The notes beneath the pieces are model-generated. The model did no database searches and had not been told where the DNA came from. It was given only the letters and a program-made list of their open reading frames with translations. DNA of 64,000 nucleotides from Candidatus Binatia bacterium (GTDB taxonomy: Bacteria; Desulfobacterota; Binatia; UBA12015): positions 124,001-188,000 of the forward strand of contig JAQWRY010000003.1 of the NCBI GenBank assembly GCA_029243485.1, written 5' to 3'. A program made the translations under genes and the position numbers. How positions within the stretch are numbered: the first letter of the stretch is position 1; each line of letters begins with the position of its first letter. This document shows positions 47,641 through 53,874 of the stretch, piece by piece.

Positions 47641-47714
47641 GGTCGCATAGCTCAGTTGGTTAGAGCGCCCGCTTCACATGCGGGAGGTCCGGGGTTCAAA
47701 TCCCTGTGCGACCA
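47641..47714 (+). tRNA. tRNA-Val (anticodon CAC)
   Basis: All arms pair: acceptor GGTCGCA with TGCGACC, D stem GCTC/GAGC, anticodon stem CCCGC/GCGGG around loop TTCACAT, and T arm with GGTTCAAATCC. The anticodon CAC at 47675-47677 reads GUG. The discriminator is A; the CCA end is not encoded. A search by eye found no second copy of its 3' end in the window. Confidence 0.96.
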
Positions 47715-47821
47715 CTTCCGAAGCGCCTGGGCAGACGCGGTCGGGTCTGCTGTGCCGGCCCGGCCGCCGCTCAAGCCCGGCCCCCGGTCCTGCCGATCCT
47801 CCCTCCAGCGGGGAGGTCATC

Positions 47822-48100
47822 ATGAAGTGGATCATTGGAATGGCGGTCATCGCGGGCCTGTTGTGGCTCGGCGGAGACCGGGTAAACGAGCTCCTCGCGT
47901 CGGGTCGGGAGTCCGCCGGAAGCCTCACGGCCCCCATCCACGGGCTGGCGAAGACGGTCGACCAGACTCGGGAGCGCGTCGACGAGACGAATCGGAAGAT
48001 AGAGGCGCTGTCGGGCCAGGCGGCCACCGCATCGGCCGGGAGCGCCGCGTCGGCGTACGGCGCGCAGGCGCGTCGGGACCTGGACGCGCTCACTCGCTGA
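47822..48100 (+). CDS. Small membrane-anchored coiled-coil protein
   Basis: A 92-residue protein with one N-terminal membrane segment (WIIGMAVIAGLLWLGG, residues 3-18) followed by a helical heptad-rich region (TVDQTRERVDETNRKIEAL) and an Ala/Ser-rich tail. ATG 47822 has GGGAGG five bases upstream. It resembles small membrane-tethered helical proteins of no known function. It lies between tRNA-Val and the polysaccharide export operon on the same strand. Confidence 0.7.
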   Translation: MKWIIGMAVIAGLLWLGGDRVNELLASGRESAGSLTAPIHGLAKTVDQTRERVDETNRKIEALSGQAATASAGSAASAYGAQARRDLDALTR

Positions 48101-48151: not shown

Positions 48152-48937
48152 ATGCTGGACGGCCTTTGGCGTTACCGAACATTCATCGCGAGCATGGTCC
48201 GACGCGAGTTCCAGGCTCGCTACCTGGGCTCGGCGCTCGGCTCCTTGTGGTCGGTGCTGAATCCGCTCGCGATGATCTTCATTTACACGGTCATCTTCGG
48301 GCAGGTGATGCGCGCCCGTTTGCCCGGCGTCGAAGACGGAACCAGCTACGGGATCTTCCTGTGCGCCGGGCTGCTGCCCTGGAACATGTTCGTCGAGACT
48401 CTGCAGCGCGGCACCAACGTTTTCGTCGACCAGGGGAACCTCCTGAAGAAGATGACGTTCCCGCGGGCGTCTCTGCCGATCATCGTGGTTGCCTCGGCGT
48501 TGGTGAACTTCGCGATCATCTTCGGACTGCTGCTCTTCGTGATGTTGGTGCTCGGACGCTTCCCCGGCTGGCCGCTACTCGGGCTCGTACCGCTTCTCTT
48601 CTTGCAGCAGATGATCGCTGTGGGCATCGGCGTCGGGCTCGGTGTTTTGAACGTGTTCTTCCGCGACGTCGGACAGGCAGTGGGGATCCTTCTTCAGTTC
48701 TGGTTCTGGTTCACGCCGATCATCTACCCGCTCTCGATCCTCGGTGAGCGCCTCCAGTTCCTGGTCCGGCTGAATCCGATGACGGCGTTCGTGGACGCCT
48801 ACCAGGGTATCCTTCTGTACGATCGCTCTCCGGACTGGCTCTCGTTTCTTCCGCACCTGGTACTCGCGTGCCTGGCCCTGGCGTTAGGACGGAAGATCTT
48901 CCGACGCCTCGCCGGCGAGATGACGGACTACCTCTGA
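48152..48937 (+). CDS. ABC-2 polysaccharide exporter permease 1 (Wzm-like)
   Basis: A 261-residue ABC-2-type permease with six membrane segments. FIASMVRREFQARYLGSALG and WSVLNPLAMIFIYTVIFGQV are the hallmark N-terminal blocks of Wzm/TagG-like permeases, and FWFWFTPIIYPLS, NPMTAFVDAYQGIL the C-terminal ones. It should move a lipid-linked glycan across the inner membrane with its ATPase partner, whose start overlaps this stop by one base (TGATG). First gene of a coupled operon. Confidence 0.94.
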   Translation: MLDGLWRYRTFIASMVRREFQARYLGSALGSLWSVLNPLAMIFIYTVIFGQVMRARLPGVEDGTSYGIFLCAGLLPWNMFVETLQRGTNVFVDQGNLLKKMTFPRASLPIIVVASALVNFAIIFGLLLFVMLVLGRFPGWPLLGLVPLLFLQQMIAVGIGVGLGVLNVFFRDVGQAVGILLQFWFWFTPIIYPLSILGERLQFLVRLNPMTAFVDAYQGILLYDRSPDWLSFLPHLVLACLALALGRKIFRRLAGEMTDYL

Positions 48938-50175
48938 TGGGACGCATCGTCGCACGAGGCCTCGGGAAGAAGTTTCGGATCTACCGGCGCTCCCGCGATC
49001 AGCTGTTGGAGTGGATGTCGCGCGGCGGCAAGACCCTCCACCGGGAAGACTGGGTGCTTCGGGACATCGACTTCGAAGTGAACGAAGGCGAATCCGTCGG
49101 CATCATCGGAATGAACGGAGCGGGGAAGAGCACGCTCCTGCGAATCCTCACGGGAACGACGCTGGCGAGCGAGGGCTCGTTCGAGGTCTCTGGTCGGGTC
49201 GCCGCGTTGCTGGAGTTGGGGCTCGGGATCCACCCCGAGTTCGATGGGTGGCAGAATGCGGGGCTCGCGTGCCGACTCCTCGGCGTGGAAGAGCACGACA
49301 TCCCGAAGGTCCTTCCCTGGGTGCAGGAGTTTTCCGAGCTCGGCAGCCACATGGATCAGCCGGTCCGAACCTACTCGACGGGGATGCAGGTCCGGTTGGC
49401 CTTCAGTGCGGCGACGGCCGTTCGTCCCGATGTCCTGATGGTCGACGAAGCTCTCTCCGTCGGCGATGCTTACTTTCAGCACAAGTCGATGAGCCGCATC
49501 CGCGCGTTCCGGGAGGAGGGTACGACGCTTCTGTTCGTGACCCACGATCCGGGAGCGGTGAAATCGCTCTGCGACCGCGCGCTGCTCCTGGAGGCGGGTC
49601 GGCTCGTGCTGGATGACGCACCCGACGCGGTCTTTGACTACTACAACGCGCGCATCGCGCAACGTGAGAAAGACGCGGAGATCGAGCAGCACAAGGACTC
49701 CGAAGGCCGTTCGGTTACGCGCTCGGGTACGCGAGAAGCCGAGTTGGTGTCAGTCACAGTCGAAGACGGCGAGGGCCGGCCCGCGCGCCTCTTCCGCGTC
49801 GGTGCGGCCGCGACGATCCGTTGCCGAATCAAGCTGAACGCTGCGATGGACTGTCCGACCGTCGGCTTCGTGATTCGGGATCGACTCGGCTCCGATGTGT
49901 TCGGGTCCAATACGTTCCACCTGGATGTCGGAGGGGCCGTCGGTGAGGCCGGCGAGCTGTTTGAGGCGGAATTCCGCACCGTGATGCACCTGGGGCCTGG
50001 CACGTACTCCCTGAGCGTCGCGCTACATCGCGATCATGTACACGTCGAGTCGAACTACGATTGGTGGGATCGCGCGGCGTTGATCGAAGTCGTGCCCGGG
50101 GAGAATGCGCCGTTCACCGGACTGGCCGCGCTTCCCATTGAGGGCACGGTTCGACGTCGCCCGTCCGGGGATTGA
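48937..50175 (+). CDS. ABC exporter ATPase 1 with glycan-recognition domain (Wzt-like)
   Basis: A 412-residue ATPase. Walker A is GMNGAGKST (residues 58-66), the signature is the Wzt-type YSTGMQVRLAF, and Walker B is VLMVDEALSVGD. After about residue 250 comes a Wzt C-terminal beta-sandwich (TREAELVSVTVEDGEGRPAR, DHVHVESNYDWWDRAALIEV), which in O-antigen systems recognises the modified end of the chain before export. A termination or capping enzyme would be expected; none is obvious next to it. Confidence 0.94.
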   Translation: MGRIVARGLGKKFRIYRRSRDQLLEWMSRGGKTLHREDWVLRDIDFEVNEGESVGIIGMNGAGKSTLLRILTGTTLASEGSFEVSGRVAALLELGLGIHPEFDGWQNAGLACRLLGVEEHDIPKVLPWVQEFSELGSHMDQPVRTYSTGMQVRLAFSAATAVRPDVLMVDEALSVGDAYFQHKSMSRIRAFREEGTTLLFVTHDPGAVKSLCDRALLLEAGRLVLDDAPDAVFDYYNARIAQREKDAEIEQHKDSEGRSVTRSGTREAELVSVTVEDGEGRPARLFRVGAAATIRCRIKLNAAMDCPTVGFVIRDRLGSDVFGSNTFHLDVGGAVGEAGELFEAEFRTVMHLGPGTYSLSVALHRDHVHVESNYDWWDRAALIEVVPGENAPFTGLAALPIEGTVRRRPSGD

Positions 50176-50177
50176 GC

Positions 50178-51149
50178 GTGGCCGCTCGCGTCTCGGTCAC
50201 GCTCGTCACGTTCGACAGCGCAGAGGACCTGCCGCGTTGTCTCGACGCGCTCGCCGCGCAGACGCAGGCGCCGGCGGAAGTCATCGTCGTGGACAACGCG
50301 TCGTCCGACGGGAGCGCGGGTGTCGCTGAGCGCCACGCGGTGGTGACGCGTGTGGAGCGGAATACCGACAATCGTGGGTTCGCCGCGGGGCAGAATCAGG
50401 CGCTCGGGCACGCGGGCGGGGACTGGGTCCTCGTCTTGAATCCCGACGTGACGCTCGGGCCGGGGTTTCTCGAGGCGCTCGGAGAGCACTTCGAGGCGCC
50501 GCCCGCGCTCGGAACGCTCTGTGGCAAGCTTCTGCGGGCCGAACCAGACGGCTCTCCGCGGACGCCCCCGACGCTCGACTCCGCCGGGGTCGTGTTCGAG
50601 CGCTCCTTTCGCCACCTGGATCGGGGTTCCGAGGCGCGCGACGACGGCCAGTTCGATCGGCTCGAGCCTGTTTTCGGGGCTACAGGCGCCGCCGCCTGCT
50701 ACCGACGCGACATGATCGAGGATGTTTCCATCGAAGGTGAGTTCTTCGACGAGGCGTTCTTCGCATACCGCGAGGACGCGGACCTGGCGTGGCGGGCGCA
50801 GCTCCTCGGATGGGACTGTCTTTACGTTCCGAAGGCGGTCGGGTATCACGTTCGCCGTGTTCTGCCGGCGAATCGTCGTGGGGTGGCAGCTGTTCTCAAC
50901 CGCCATTCCGTCAAGAACCGGTTCCTGATGCGGATCAAGAACGCGGACAGTGCCGTGATCCTTCGTTGCGGAGCTCGGGGCGTCGCTCGCGATCTGCTGG
51001 TGCTCGGCGGTTGCCTCACGACGGAGTGGAGTTCTCTGCCGGCCTTCATGGACGTGGCGCGACTCTGGCCGCGTGCGCGCCGGCAGCGGAAGGTCATCCA
51101 GGCGCGCCGTCGGCGGGATCCGTCCGTGGTCGCGGGGTGGTTTACGTGA
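50178..51149 (+). CDS. Family 2 glycosyltransferase
   Basis: A 323-residue GT-A fold enzyme. VSVTLVTFDSAEDLPRCLDA and VIVVDNASSDGSAG form the nucleotide-sugar site, NPDVTLGPGFLEAL the metal-binding loop and EAFFAYREDADLAWRA the catalytic-base region, as in rhamnosyltransferase-like proteins. The start is GTG 50178, two bases after the ATPase stop; TTG 50172 in frame is an alternative. It overlaps the next permease by four bases. It probably adds a sugar to the exported glycan. Confidence 0.9.
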   Translation: MAARVSVTLVTFDSAEDLPRCLDALAAQTQAPAEVIVVDNASSDGSAGVAERHAVVTRVERNTDNRGFAAGQNQALGHAGGDWVLVLNPDVTLGPGFLEALGEHFEAPPALGTLCGKLLRAEPDGSPRTPPTLDSAGVVFERSFRHLDRGSEARDDGQFDRLEPVFGATGAAACYRRDMIEDVSIEGEFFDEAFFAYREDADLAWRAQLLGWDCLYVPKAVGYHVRRVLPANRRGVAAVLNRHSVKNRFLMRIKNADSAVILRCGARGVARDLLVLGGCLTTEWSSLPAFMDVARLWPRARRQRKVIQARRRRDPSVVAGWFT

Positions 51150-51970
51150 CGCCGGCGAGCGGTACCTCGGCGCCCCGCAGCACGCCTGTGCTGGGCTCTC
51201 GCCAGGAGCACCTGCGGACGTTGTCGATCGCCTGGCAGCTCGCGCGCTTGGACCTGGTTCGTCGCTACACCGCGACGATGTTGGGCCTCGCGTGGGCGGT
51301 TCTTTCGCCTCTGCTGATGGCCGCGGTCATCGGGCTCGTATTCGCACGGTTGTTCGGCGTGGAACTGCGGACCTTCCTGCCCTACCTCTTCTTGAACCTG
51401 ACCCTCTGGGGATTCTTCATCGCGTGTCTCGACGGTGGCGCGATCTCTTTTCTCGCGGCCGAAGGCTACATCAAGCAGGTCCCGCGCGTATCGCTCTTCA
51501 CGTACCCGTTGCGGATGATCTTCGCGGCTTTCGTCACGCTGCTCCTGGGTCTCGTGGCCGCCGCGCTCGTCTCACTCGTGTTCGGCGGCCGGATCAGCCC
51601 GGCCTGGTTTTACATCCTGCCCGGGCTCGTCGCGTGGTTCCTCTTCGGGTTCTCGATCGCTTGCGTGTCTGGTGTCTTCAACACCGCCGTACGTGACTTT
51701 CAGTACATCCAGTCCGTAGGCATCCAGGCGCTCTTCTACGCCACGCCGGTCATGTTCCCCGCGGATCTCCTCGTGAGCCACGGCCTCTCGTGGATGCTGA
51801 CGTACAACCCGATCTACCACCTGATGGTCCTGGTGCGCGTGCCGATGTTGGTCAATCAGGTCCCGGCGGCGCCGCACTACGTCGCCTCGATCGCGACCCT
51901 CGTCGTTTCTTTGTCGGCGGCGTACTTCGCCGTGAAGCGAGCGCGACCTCGCCTGGTGTTCTGGCTGTGA
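51146..51970 (+). CDS. ABC-2 polysaccharide exporter permease 2 (Wzm-like)
   Basis: A second 274-residue ABC-2 permease, distinct from permease 1. ARLDLVRRYTATMLGLAWAV is the typical N-terminal helix, then six membrane segments (LLMAAVIGLVFARLFG, FFIACLDGG, and NPIYHLMVLVRVPMLVNQVP at the end). GTG 51146 overlaps the glycosyltransferase stop by four bases. Two full permease/ATPase pairs in one operon are unusual. Confidence 0.9.
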   Translation: MTPASGTSAPRSTPVLGSRQEHLRTLSIAWQLARLDLVRRYTATMLGLAWAVLSPLLMAAVIGLVFARLFGVELRTFLPYLFLNLTLWGFFIACLDGGAISFLAAEGYIKQVPRVSLFTYPLRMIFAAFVTLLLGLVAAALVSLVFGGRISPAWFYILPGLVAWFLFGFSIACVSGVFNTAVRDFQYIQSVGIQALFYATPVMFPADLLVSHGLSWMLTYNPIYHLMVLVRVPMLVNQVPAAPHYVASIATLVVSLSAAYFAVKRARPRLVFWL

Positions 51971-52689
51971 TCCGCCTCGAGGACATCTCGCTCACGTTCC
52001 CTGGCCAGGGGGCGCAGAGCCTGCGCGAGAAGTTCACGTCTCTCGTGCGGTCCTCGGCCAAGGTGCCCGATCGCGGTTCCGTGACCGCCCTGCGCGAGGT
52101 GAACATCGACATCCGCTACGGACAGCGGGTCGGCGTGATTGGCTTGAACGGTGCGGGCAAGACGACCCTGCTGAAGGTGATGTGCGGGATCTATCCGGTG
52201 ACGTCTGGTCGGTTGACGGTCGAAGGGGATATCGCGTGCCTCTTCGAGATCGCGACCGGGTTCGAGATGGAGGCGACCGGCTGGGAGAACATCATCACCC
52301 GCGGCCTTCTCGTCGGTCTCACCCGCCGTGAGATCCGCGACCGTACGCAGGAGATCGCGGACTTCACCGAGCTTGGCGCGGCGCTCGACCGGCCGGTGAA
52401 GACGTACTCGGCCGGCATGTTCATCCGGCTCGCCTTCGCGGTGTCGACCTCGATTCTGCCGGATGTGCTGCTCCTCGACGAAGTTGTCGCCGCCGGGGAC
52501 CAGCACTTTCAGGACAAGGCGACACGTCGCCTGCAGCAGATGGTGGAGCACGCATCTATCCTGGTTCTGGTCAGCCATTCCATGGATACGATCCTCACGA
52601 ACTGCACCCGGGTAGTCTGGATCGAAGCCGGTCGTGTCCGGATGGATGGACCCGCGGAAGAGGTCGTCCAGGCTTACACGGCGGAATGA
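51967..52689 (+). CDS. ABC exporter ATPase 2 (short Wzt-like)
   Basis: A 240-residue ATPase without the C-terminal glycan-binding domain. Walker A is GLNGAGKTT, the signature TYSAGMFIRLAF, and Walker B VLLLDEVVAAGD. GTG 51967 overlaps permease 2 by four bases. Its short form is that of Wzt proteins in systems with no end-recognition step, or of TagH-like ATPases. Together with permease 2 it makes a second, independent exporter. Confidence 0.93.
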   Translation: MIRLEDISLTFPGQGAQSLREKFTSLVRSSAKVPDRGSVTALREVNIDIRYGQRVGVIGLNGAGKTTLLKVMCGIYPVTSGRLTVEGDIACLFEIATGFEMEATGWENIITRGLLVGLTRREIRDRTQEIADFTELGAALDRPVKTYSAGMFIRLAFAVSTSILPDVLLLDEVVAAGDQHFQDKATRRLQQMVEHASILVLVSHSMDTILTNCTRVVWIEAGRVRMDGPAEEVVQAYTAE

Positions 52690-52692
52690 AGG

Positions 52693-53874
52693 TCAGCCCG
52701 GGCGAAGCCGCCCCGTGAGGCGGCCGATGACGCGCTCGGTGAACCGGACCGGTCCGTAGACGGCGAGGCGGTCCAGCGCGTGCCAGAACGCTCCCGTGCG
52801 CAGGTGGACCTGCTCGGGCCAGCACTCGGGCGCGCGGTGTGCGAGGAGGGGCTTGAGTGTGGTGCTCCAGTGGGGCACGAGGGCTCCGACCGAGAAGCGT
52901 GCCTCGACATCGAGGTAGGCGGCATGGCCGAGTCGCTCGCGCAGAGCGCGCTCGGAGAGCAAGCGAGCGATGGCGTCGTGCCAGGCCGCCGGCTCATTGG
53001 GGCAAAGCAGCCCGGTTGCCCCGTCGCGCACGATGTCTCCGTTGGGCGGCACCCCCGAGTAGATGCCGGCGACGCCGAGGGAGCCGTATTCCAGGTACTT
53101 GTTCCAGTACTTGAAGCGGTGGAAGTCGCTCTCGGGCAGGGGCGCGAGCCCGATCGAAAGCTCGAGCGCGAGGGCTCGCCGGCGCCACGTACCGAAGTCG
53201 CTCTCGAAGGGGTGGCGGAGGGCGCCGAGGTCGGCCGCAACTTTCGGATCCGCGCCGCAGAAGACGAACTCGATGTTCTGCCCCTGCTCGCGCTTCAGCT
53301 GGCGGAGGACGTCTCCGAGCAGCTCGTCGATGTACGGTCCGTGATCCACACTGCCGAGAAAACCGATGCGAACGGGTTCGCCGTCCGGCCTGGGAACGGT
53401 CTCTCCAGGGAGTCGGGCCGGGCGTGGTTGGAGGACCCGCACCGCACGCCCTCCGTGCCGCGCGTCGAGCTCTTCTCGTAGTCGGTCACTGCAGACGAGG
53501 ACGTCGTCCGCTTCGCGGACCAGGAAGGCAACGTTCTCGCGTACCTCGGCGGACGTGAAGAAATAGCCGCTCCGTGCGCTATCCGGCACCCGTTCGAGAT
53601 CGTCGTCGAGGTAGGTTGCGACGCGCTTTCCTAGGCGTCGCGCCTCGGTCAGGAGGCGACGCTCGGCGGGCGATGCGCCGCGCACCAGGATCACTGTGTC
53701 GGCCCACGCCACGTCGTGCGTCGAGGGCGACACGCTCGACCCGGTTCGGAACTCGCAGAGGCGGCTTTTCGCCCCGAGACCCTCAAACACGGTGTGGACC
53801 CCCAGTACGGCGGACGGGATCGGTGCTTCGCAGAGCGCGAGAATACGGGCGGGTCTGGCTTTGGTGGACGGCAT
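52693..53874 (-). CDS. Family 4-like glycosyltransferase
   Basis: A 393-residue GT-B fold protein. The N-terminal half has a short nucleotide-fold (ARILALCEAPIPSAVLGVHT). The C-terminal half has GEPVRIGFLGSVDHGPYIDE, NKYLEYGSLGVAGIYSGVPP and ATGLLCPNEPAAWHDAI, the EX7E-type donor site of GT4-like enzymes. ATG 53874 is preferred to GTG 53895. It is convergent with the export operon, three bases from its end, so it belongs to the same locus but to a different transcript. Confidence 0.85.
   Translation of the reverse strand: MPSTKARPARILALCEAPIPSAVLGVHTVFEGLGAKSRLCEFRTGSSVSPSTHDVAWADTVILVRGASPAERRLLTEARRLGKRVATYLDDDLERVPDSARSGYFFTSAEVRENVAFLVREADDVLVCSDRLREELDARHGGRAVRVLQPRPARLPGETVPRPDGEPVRIGFLGSVDHGPYIDELLGDVLRQLKREQGQNIEFVFCGADPKVAADLGALRHPFESDFGTWRRRALALELSIGLAPLPESDFHRFKYWNKYLEYGSLGVAGIYSGVPPNGDIVRDGATGLLCPNEPAAWHDAIARLLSERALRERLGHAAYLDVEARFSVGALVPHWSTTLKPLLAHRAPECWPEQVHLRTGAFWHALDRLAVYGPVRFTERVIGRLTGRLRPG

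Follow-up and report, generated by a model that had tools for sequence, protein, structure and literature searches.

Two ABC-2 exporters of different type and one glycosyltransferase in a conserved gene block of a Binatia family

A 64,000-nucleotide stretch of DNA from a Candidatus Binatia bacterium (assembly GCA_029243485.1, contig JAQWRY010000003.1, positions 124,001 to 188,000; here called the window) carries a block of five genes that encode two ABC-2 exporters of different type and one glycosyltransferase. The first permease and its ATPase, P1 and A1 (pair 1), are followed by a family 2 glycosyltransferase, GT2, and then by the second permease and ATPase, P2 and A2 (pair 2), and all five genes are intact. 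Each exporter is of a known kind, and it is the combination of both kinds with GT2 in one conserved operon that appears to be new; no description of both exporter types in one operon was found in the open-access literature searched. The best explanation, held with about as much confidence as doubt, is that two separate exporters and one glycosyltransferase are inherited as a unit, with pair 1 serving a methyl-capped O-antigen and pair 2 a second glycan whose export is independent of a cap. According to the portion of PMC11231755 available, Klebsiella serotypes differ in using either cap-checked or cap-independent export. A lineage with both known export logics in one operon is a natural test of why a cell needs both, and also of the means by which an exporter finds its glycan when the synthesis genes are at other loci. 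The cap-site residues offer a concrete substrate prediction for uncultured bacteria.

Conservation and separate ancestry of the two exporters

The window's own genome (G000; 6.5 Mb, 88 contigs, 97.5% complete) was compared with 13 others of its family, making 14 genomes with six genus codes. The five-gene order, which the sequence-only reading had proposed to look for in other genomes, is complete in eight of the 14 (G000, G001, G003, G005, G007, G008, G010 and G011), cut by contig ends in four, and absent from two (G004, 97% complete, and G012, 63% complete). Among the cut examples, a contig end removes the start of P1 in G013, the block is split across two contigs in G006, the contig of G009 stops inside GT2 and that of G002 begins inside P2; no P2 orthologue was found elsewhere in G009 and no P1 orthologue elsewhere in G002. 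Whole or cut only by contig ends, the block is present in all six genus codes, and its flanking genes, though partly common within and between genera, are different overall. Retention across the six genus codes with changing neighbours supports a linked function of the two pairs, and so the functional tie that had been proposed from the sequence; it says that the exporters are used together in some way, the manner of which is not given by co-inheritance.

An operon of convenience, with unrelated exporters sharing a transcript and nothing else, would draw on the further ABC2_membrane matches in the 6.5 Mb genome (nine in all, eight above cut-off), yet the recurrence of the five-gene order in every genus code while the flanks change makes it quite unlikely. 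Chance is not the source of the pairing either, since from nine matches in 6.5 Mb only about 0.017 same-strand pairs of such closeness are expected and the gene order recurs in relatives.

All five genes are under purifying selection. Pairwise ratios of nonsynonymous to synonymous change (dN/dS), obtained by a simple counting method against G001 and G003 respectively, are 0.11 and 0.25 for P1, 0.07 and 0.20 for A1, 0.11 and 0.23 for GT2, 0.08 and 0.24 for P2, and 0.10 and 0.21 for A2.

P1 and P2 are 28% identical, and A1 and A2 35%. A phylogeny of both pairs, suggested by the sequence-only reading, was run for the permeases (52 rows, 51 of them different, one gene standing twice as L015 and L077) and places P1 and P2 in separate clades, with a fully supported branch between 17 P2-like rows and the remaining 35. 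On the P2 side, the 10 orthologues group in a starred clade, and the relatives around it come from Bacillota, Pseudomonadota, G286 and G017. The 10 P1 orthologues (92/85, not starred) lie inside a starred clade of 19 together with permeases of other families of the phylum, and most permeases of that clade are seen in O-antigen-type loci. Genus order in the family's P1 and P2 branches is broadly the same, except for genus g2 (G009 in the P1 branch, G013 in the P2 branch), which is placed differently. Every one of the 12 A1 and 11 A2 rows examined has the Walker A, signature, Walker B and H-loop motifs. The two pairs are distinct and of old origin, not duplicates. That one is a recent, decaying copy of the other, the finding that had been named in advance as telling against two working exporters, has next to no probability given the identities, the tree, the dN/dS values of 0.07 to 0.25 and the intact motifs. 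The earlier statement that there are two complete exporters of different type is borne out by the Pfam domains, the nearest structures, the tree and the ATPase motifs.

Outside the family the two permease types were not seen together. Reading by eye of 44 relatives from other families of the class gave no side-by-side P1-like and P2-like matches. A search of genome contigs with a profile from the P2 alignment gave 13 loci, eight of them the family's block or its pieces; the other five hold P2 relatives of 29-37% identity and no P1 match in the fetched stretch, that of L094 being cut just after P2. Among 297 genomes of the phylum, P1 relatives at E 1e-55 occur in 10 others and P2 relatives at E 1e-30 in one other, figures that come from two single-gene searches and are not a census of tandem exporters.

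Two further observations concern contig ends. The 3.3 kb contig JAUIME010000668.1 (L091) has P1-A1-GT2 and P2 up to residue 104, and may be the missing piece of G002, whose contig picks up at P2 residue 106; there is no overlap between the two ends. In G025, from another family of the class, a contig end carries two P1-like pieces on the same strand, separated by 1.9 kb (C297:5-715 and 2599-2856), the second being a 91-amino-acid open frame; they may reflect a further case of exporter doubling or an effect of assembly.

Pair 1, its cap site and candidate partners elsewhere

The pair 1 domains PF01061, PF00005 and PF14524 all score above their cut-offs, giving an ABC-2 permease with a Wzt_C-bearing ATPase. 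The structures nearest to A1 over its whole length are 8dku and 7k2t (8dku_A aligned over residues 9-409, E 3.6e-76), and the best solved relative of P1 is 6m96_B, at 127.6 bits versus 53.7 for 9qfx_A; 8dku, 7k2t and 6m96 are presumably the Aquifex aeolicus Wzm/Wzt, the residue numbering of which fits with an offset of one. Models for other exporters are not reached: P1 has 49.3 of the 300 bits set for the capsule exporter KpsM (NF050053), and against the models NF010065 and NF010066 for TagH, the ATPase of teichoic acid export (cut-offs 538 and 320), A1 has 178.3 and 162.3 bits and A2 166.4 and 150.6.

According to the available part of PMC9445017, a 3-O-methyl cap is bound by the Aquifex Wzt domain: Asn313 and His350 hold the sugar, the methyl pocket is made up of Leu300, Thr346, Ala348 and Trp362, and His355 is at the second sugar. 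In an alignment of 12 A1 sequences, 11 from the family and one from G057, N313, A348, H350, H355 and W362 (Aquifex numbering) are invariant; where Aquifex has Thr346, Leu300 and Val380, the A1 sequences have Ser or Thr, a variable residue, and Thr or Val respectively. All five invariant residues are also kept in five of seven outside A1 relatives in the phylum (G057 left out), and just A348 is kept in two other Wzt_C ATPases of G000 (contig C43; L081, L082). Because the site is kept in relatives and lost in these two paralogues, it marks the exporter type rather than the fold, though not in every member of the clade. Pair 1 thus resembles the Aquifex system in its permease, its ATPase with C-terminal carbohydrate-binding domain and its five cap-site residues, and differs from it in having no adjoining cap enzyme, in the second exporter and GT2 of the operon, and in Asn in place of Tyr233. 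Pair 1 most likely exports a lipid-linked O-antigen the growing end of which is closed by an O-methyl cap, and the carbohydrate-binding domain of A1 would grip the cap and so license the finished chain, as in Aquifex. LpxC is present in 12 of the 14 family genomes (on contig C7 in G000), and G000 has five matches to Wzy_C, a Pfam family that alone does not separate ligase from polymerase.

Eight P1-A1 loci outside the family were read (L075 from G057, L108-L113 and L116). All eight have GT4-type (family 4) glycosyltransferase matches; six (L075, L108, L109, L110, L112 and L116) have a gmd-family gene on the same stretch, and in five (L075, L108, L109, L113 and L116) a methyltransferase of the L075 type adjoins A1. 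The locus of G159 (L108) has in addition an initiating sugar-phosphate transferase, a protein of the O-antigen-ligase family and a rhamnosyltransferase-like GT4. Such a gene layout is standard for an ABC-dependent O-antigen locus. A second P1- or P2-like permease stands beside P1 in none of the eight, L116 having one weak P1-like match about 7 kb off. Downstream of P1-A1, L111 (15845-16363) and L116 (17572-17970) have a second, partial A1 match of the C-terminal part without the ATPase (26% and 33%), which may be a carbohydrate-binding module on its own.

The methyltransferase of G159 was used as query on 18 genomes at a threshold of E 1e-12. It has a match in all 12 block-bearing genomes of the family and in neither of the two block-less ones, and also in all four outside genomes given, G159 as the query source included. 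A methyltransferase-GT4-GT4 module is complete in eight genomes (G000, on contig C86, G002, G005, G006, G008, G009, G010 and G011). Its methyltransferase is in G001, G003 and G013, where the remainder is cut by or beyond a contig end, so that the module or its methyltransferase is in 11 of the 12 block-bearing genomes, the twelfth, G007 (88% complete), having given only a different methyltransferase paralogue; the block-less G004 and G012 were searched for the methyltransferase alone and not for the two GT4 genes of the module, GT4x and GT4y. Simple arithmetic puts the probability of this split, 11 of 12 versus none of two, at 3/91; the figure takes no account of kinship, and with G012 incomplete the co-occurrence is no more than supportive. 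The capping methyltransferase and two GT4 enzymes of the pair 1 pathway would act in trans from this second locus, and GDP-deoxyhexose would come from a third, the gmd gene and another member of its dehydratase family on contig C32 of G000 (L115:9675-11706). One reading is that an ancestral gmd-Wzm-Wzt-methyltransferase-GT4 locus has been broken up in the family, the exporter now travelling with GT2 and pair 2.

The gmd genes of C32 were also considered as part of a full O-antigen locus. This was rejected on their neighbours, as they run with LptD, a Mur-ligase-like gene, trp genes, GT2-family genes and a type II secretion ATPase; sugar-nucleotide supply there adjoins the outer-membrane assembly of lipopolysaccharide. 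Another arrangement, different from the C86 module, joins a related methyltransferase to a GT2 and a GT4 at L142:9272-12167 (contig C52 of G000) and in L144 (G007).

Among 58 relatives, 38 candidates per genome having been scored, orthologues of the block's GT2 (59-80% identical) were found only inside the block, in 10 of the 14 family genomes including the window's own, and other matches at E 1e-30 are 34-38% identical. The best outside relative seen, with 46% identity along its full length, comes from the P1-A1-bearing locus of G159; G159 is outside the 58 and was reached via P1. As its closest outside relative stands in an O-antigen-type locus with P1-A1, GT2 belongs most likely to the pair 1 pathway, where it would probably add an early or adaptor sugar. 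The tie by descent to pair 1 rather than pair 2 is suggestive only, since a pair 2 relative in G286 also adjoins GT2-family genes, two more distant ones (33% and 31%) lying just upstream. The mycobacterial analogy, with GT2 as GlfT1, was rejected: the match to NF050113 is 24.8 bits of 330 over residues 8-89, and the best full-length relative is in an O-antigen-type locus.

Pair 2 and the relation between the exporters

P2-A2, a permease with an ATPase that ends after the ATPase domain, fits a Wzm/Wzt without a carbohydrate-binding domain in the wide sense of that term. The nearest structure to P2 is 9qfx_A (75.9 bits singly, 118.2 with a profile), and those nearest to A2 are 9qhw_C and 9qfx_C (197 bits), from entries named as RfbE-type and O-antigen transport proteins; both 9qfx and 9qhw are taken to be mycobacterial. 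The likeness to the galactan exporter RfbD/RfbE lies in these structures and in the lack of a carbohydrate-binding domain in A2, and it has limits. The best NCBIfam matches, to the galactan exporter models, are far below cut-off (P2 126.3 of 380 bits to NF050109, A2 232.6 of 400 to NF050108), and UDP-galactopyranose mutase, the galactofuranose-forming enzyme, has no match in the 97.5% complete G000 and is above cut-off in two of the 14 family genomes. On these grounds a true galactan exporter was rejected as the identity of pair 2.

In the Klebsiella prototype without the domain, as the accessible text of PMC11231755 has it, export is coupled to chain extension and the exporter is permissive. 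The same text gives cap-dependent and cap-independent export as the two Klebsiella strategies, the exporter of O1/O2 being without the module and those of O3/O5/O12 with it; these match pair 2 and pair 1 respectively, but in Klebsiella they are in different serotypes and here both are in one block. The most likely cargo of pair 2 is a second lipid-linked glycan that leaves by such a cap-independent route, with export coupled to synthesis.

Several findings weigh against the explanation of a capped O-antigen through pair 1 and a separate glycan through pair 2. Neither a methyltransferase nor any other cap enzyme is inside the block, and three of the eight outside P1-A1 loci (L110, L111 and L112) have no methyltransferase match. 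The case for the module in trans is built on 14 genomes with no correction for kinship, identity of the family methyltransferases to that of G159 is just 29-44%, and methyltransferases of this class are common. Tyr233 of Aquifex, which contacts the second and third sugars, is replaced by Asn throughout the 12 A1 sequences, and the chain may therefore differ from that of Aquifex. Among the outside relatives, A1 of G261 keeps four cap-site residues, with Cys at His350, and that of G302 keeps none. GT2 is generic in fold (Foldseek finds a GT-A fold and no specificity, with a model of mean pLDDT 66.5), and nothing recognised in the family points to a substrate or a dedicated biosynthesis partner of pair 2.

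The last point is shared by an alternative in which both exporters handle one polymer, pair 1 passing capped chains only and pair 2 uncapped or differently ended ones, with no separate biosynthesis genes seen beside pair 2 here. There is some precedent, as in an engineered Klebsiella strain the domain-less exporter also moved the chain of another serotype (PMC11231755, in part), and the portion of PMC10629545 at hand attributes the export of two O1 glycoforms to the exporter's lack of specificity. Two glycoforms of one polymer are nevertheless quite unlikely, as the module-bearing prototypes accept only terminated chains as exporter substrates (same part of PMC11231755) and the P2-A2 relative in L114 stands in a sugar cluster of its own.

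A two-part path to one composite glycan, with a capped main chain exported by pair 1, a second lipid-linked chain or linker by pair 2, and joining in the periplasm, accords with the block never being half-kept in the 14 family genomes save at contig ends and with the broadly shared branching order of the two pairs. Mycobacterial arabinogalactan, completed after Wzm-Wzt export according to the part of PMC10951656 available, is a precedent. A periplasmic transferase with linkage to the block was not observed, however, and strict co-inheritance is equally expected from simple co-regulation, so this path is unlikely, though not so unlikely as the two glycoforms. A related and similarly doubtful idea is an assembly line in which a cap-checking and a cap-independent exporter, sharing GT2, move two lipid-linked parts of a single envelope glycan, to be joined beyond the inner membrane; if true, it would explain why the pairs are not found apart in the family.

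Layout and surroundings of the block

The five-gene order, the coordinates and the tight junctions given by the sequence-only reading hold up against coordinates and Pfam domains (Table 1). P1 and A1 overlap by one base, and GT2/P2 and P2/A2 by four bases each; between A1 and GT2 there is a gap of two bases from GTG 50178, or an overlap of four from TTG 50172. In relatives the spacing of the same junctions ranges from -13 to +147 bases, so that tight overlap is not a fixed trait. A scan for promoter- and terminator-like sites found no promoter-like site and five terminator-like sites versus 3.8 (standard deviation 1.8) in shuffles; the five genes are probably co-transcribed.

Table 1. Features of the block and its immediate surroundings, in window positions
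Feature	Position	Strand	Start or basis
P1, ABC-2 permease (Wzm type), 261 aa	48152..48937	+	ATG; PF01061 90.9 bits
A1, ABC ATPase with C-terminal carbohydrate-binding domain (Wzt type), 412 aa	48937..50175	+	ATG; PF00005 and PF14524
Wzt_C carbohydrate-binding domain of A1, residues 261-398	49717..50130	+	PF14524 117.4 bits
GT2, family 2 glycosyltransferase, 323 aa	50178..51149	+	GTG, TTG 50172 possible; PF00535 82.7 bits
P2, ABC-2 permease, galactan-exporter-like, 274 aa	51146..51970	+	GTG; PF01061 43.9 bits
A2, ABC ATPase without carbohydrate-binding domain, 240 aa	51967..52689	+	GTG; PF00005 alone
Convergent GT4-type glycosyltransferase	52693..53874	-	PF00534
Small open reading frame, 92 aa, hydrophobic N-terminus, directly 5' of block; not counted in the unit	47822..48100	+	translation
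tRNA-Val (CAC), upstream of block	47641-47715

The convergent GT4 gene has a relative in the fetched stretch of seven of 12 other loci with the block or part of it, at distances from overlapping A2 up to about 5.4 kb, several of the remaining five loci being short contigs; it is a possible but unproven partner of the block. Beyond it, on the 3' side, are genes for a thiolase, a nuclease and acyl-CoA functions among others. In other genomes a gene with a sulfotransferase domain is convergent with A2 (L066:5272-6024 and L072:1615-2376, with a related open reading frame in L068); all three loci are from genera g3 and g4, and this is a hint of a sulfated glycan in those genera.

On the 5' side, the start of the small open reading frame at 47822 is the more likely one because a frame from 47678 would overlap the tRNA gene. 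Among the same 12 loci, its relatives occur only in L064 and L065, both from the window's own genus.

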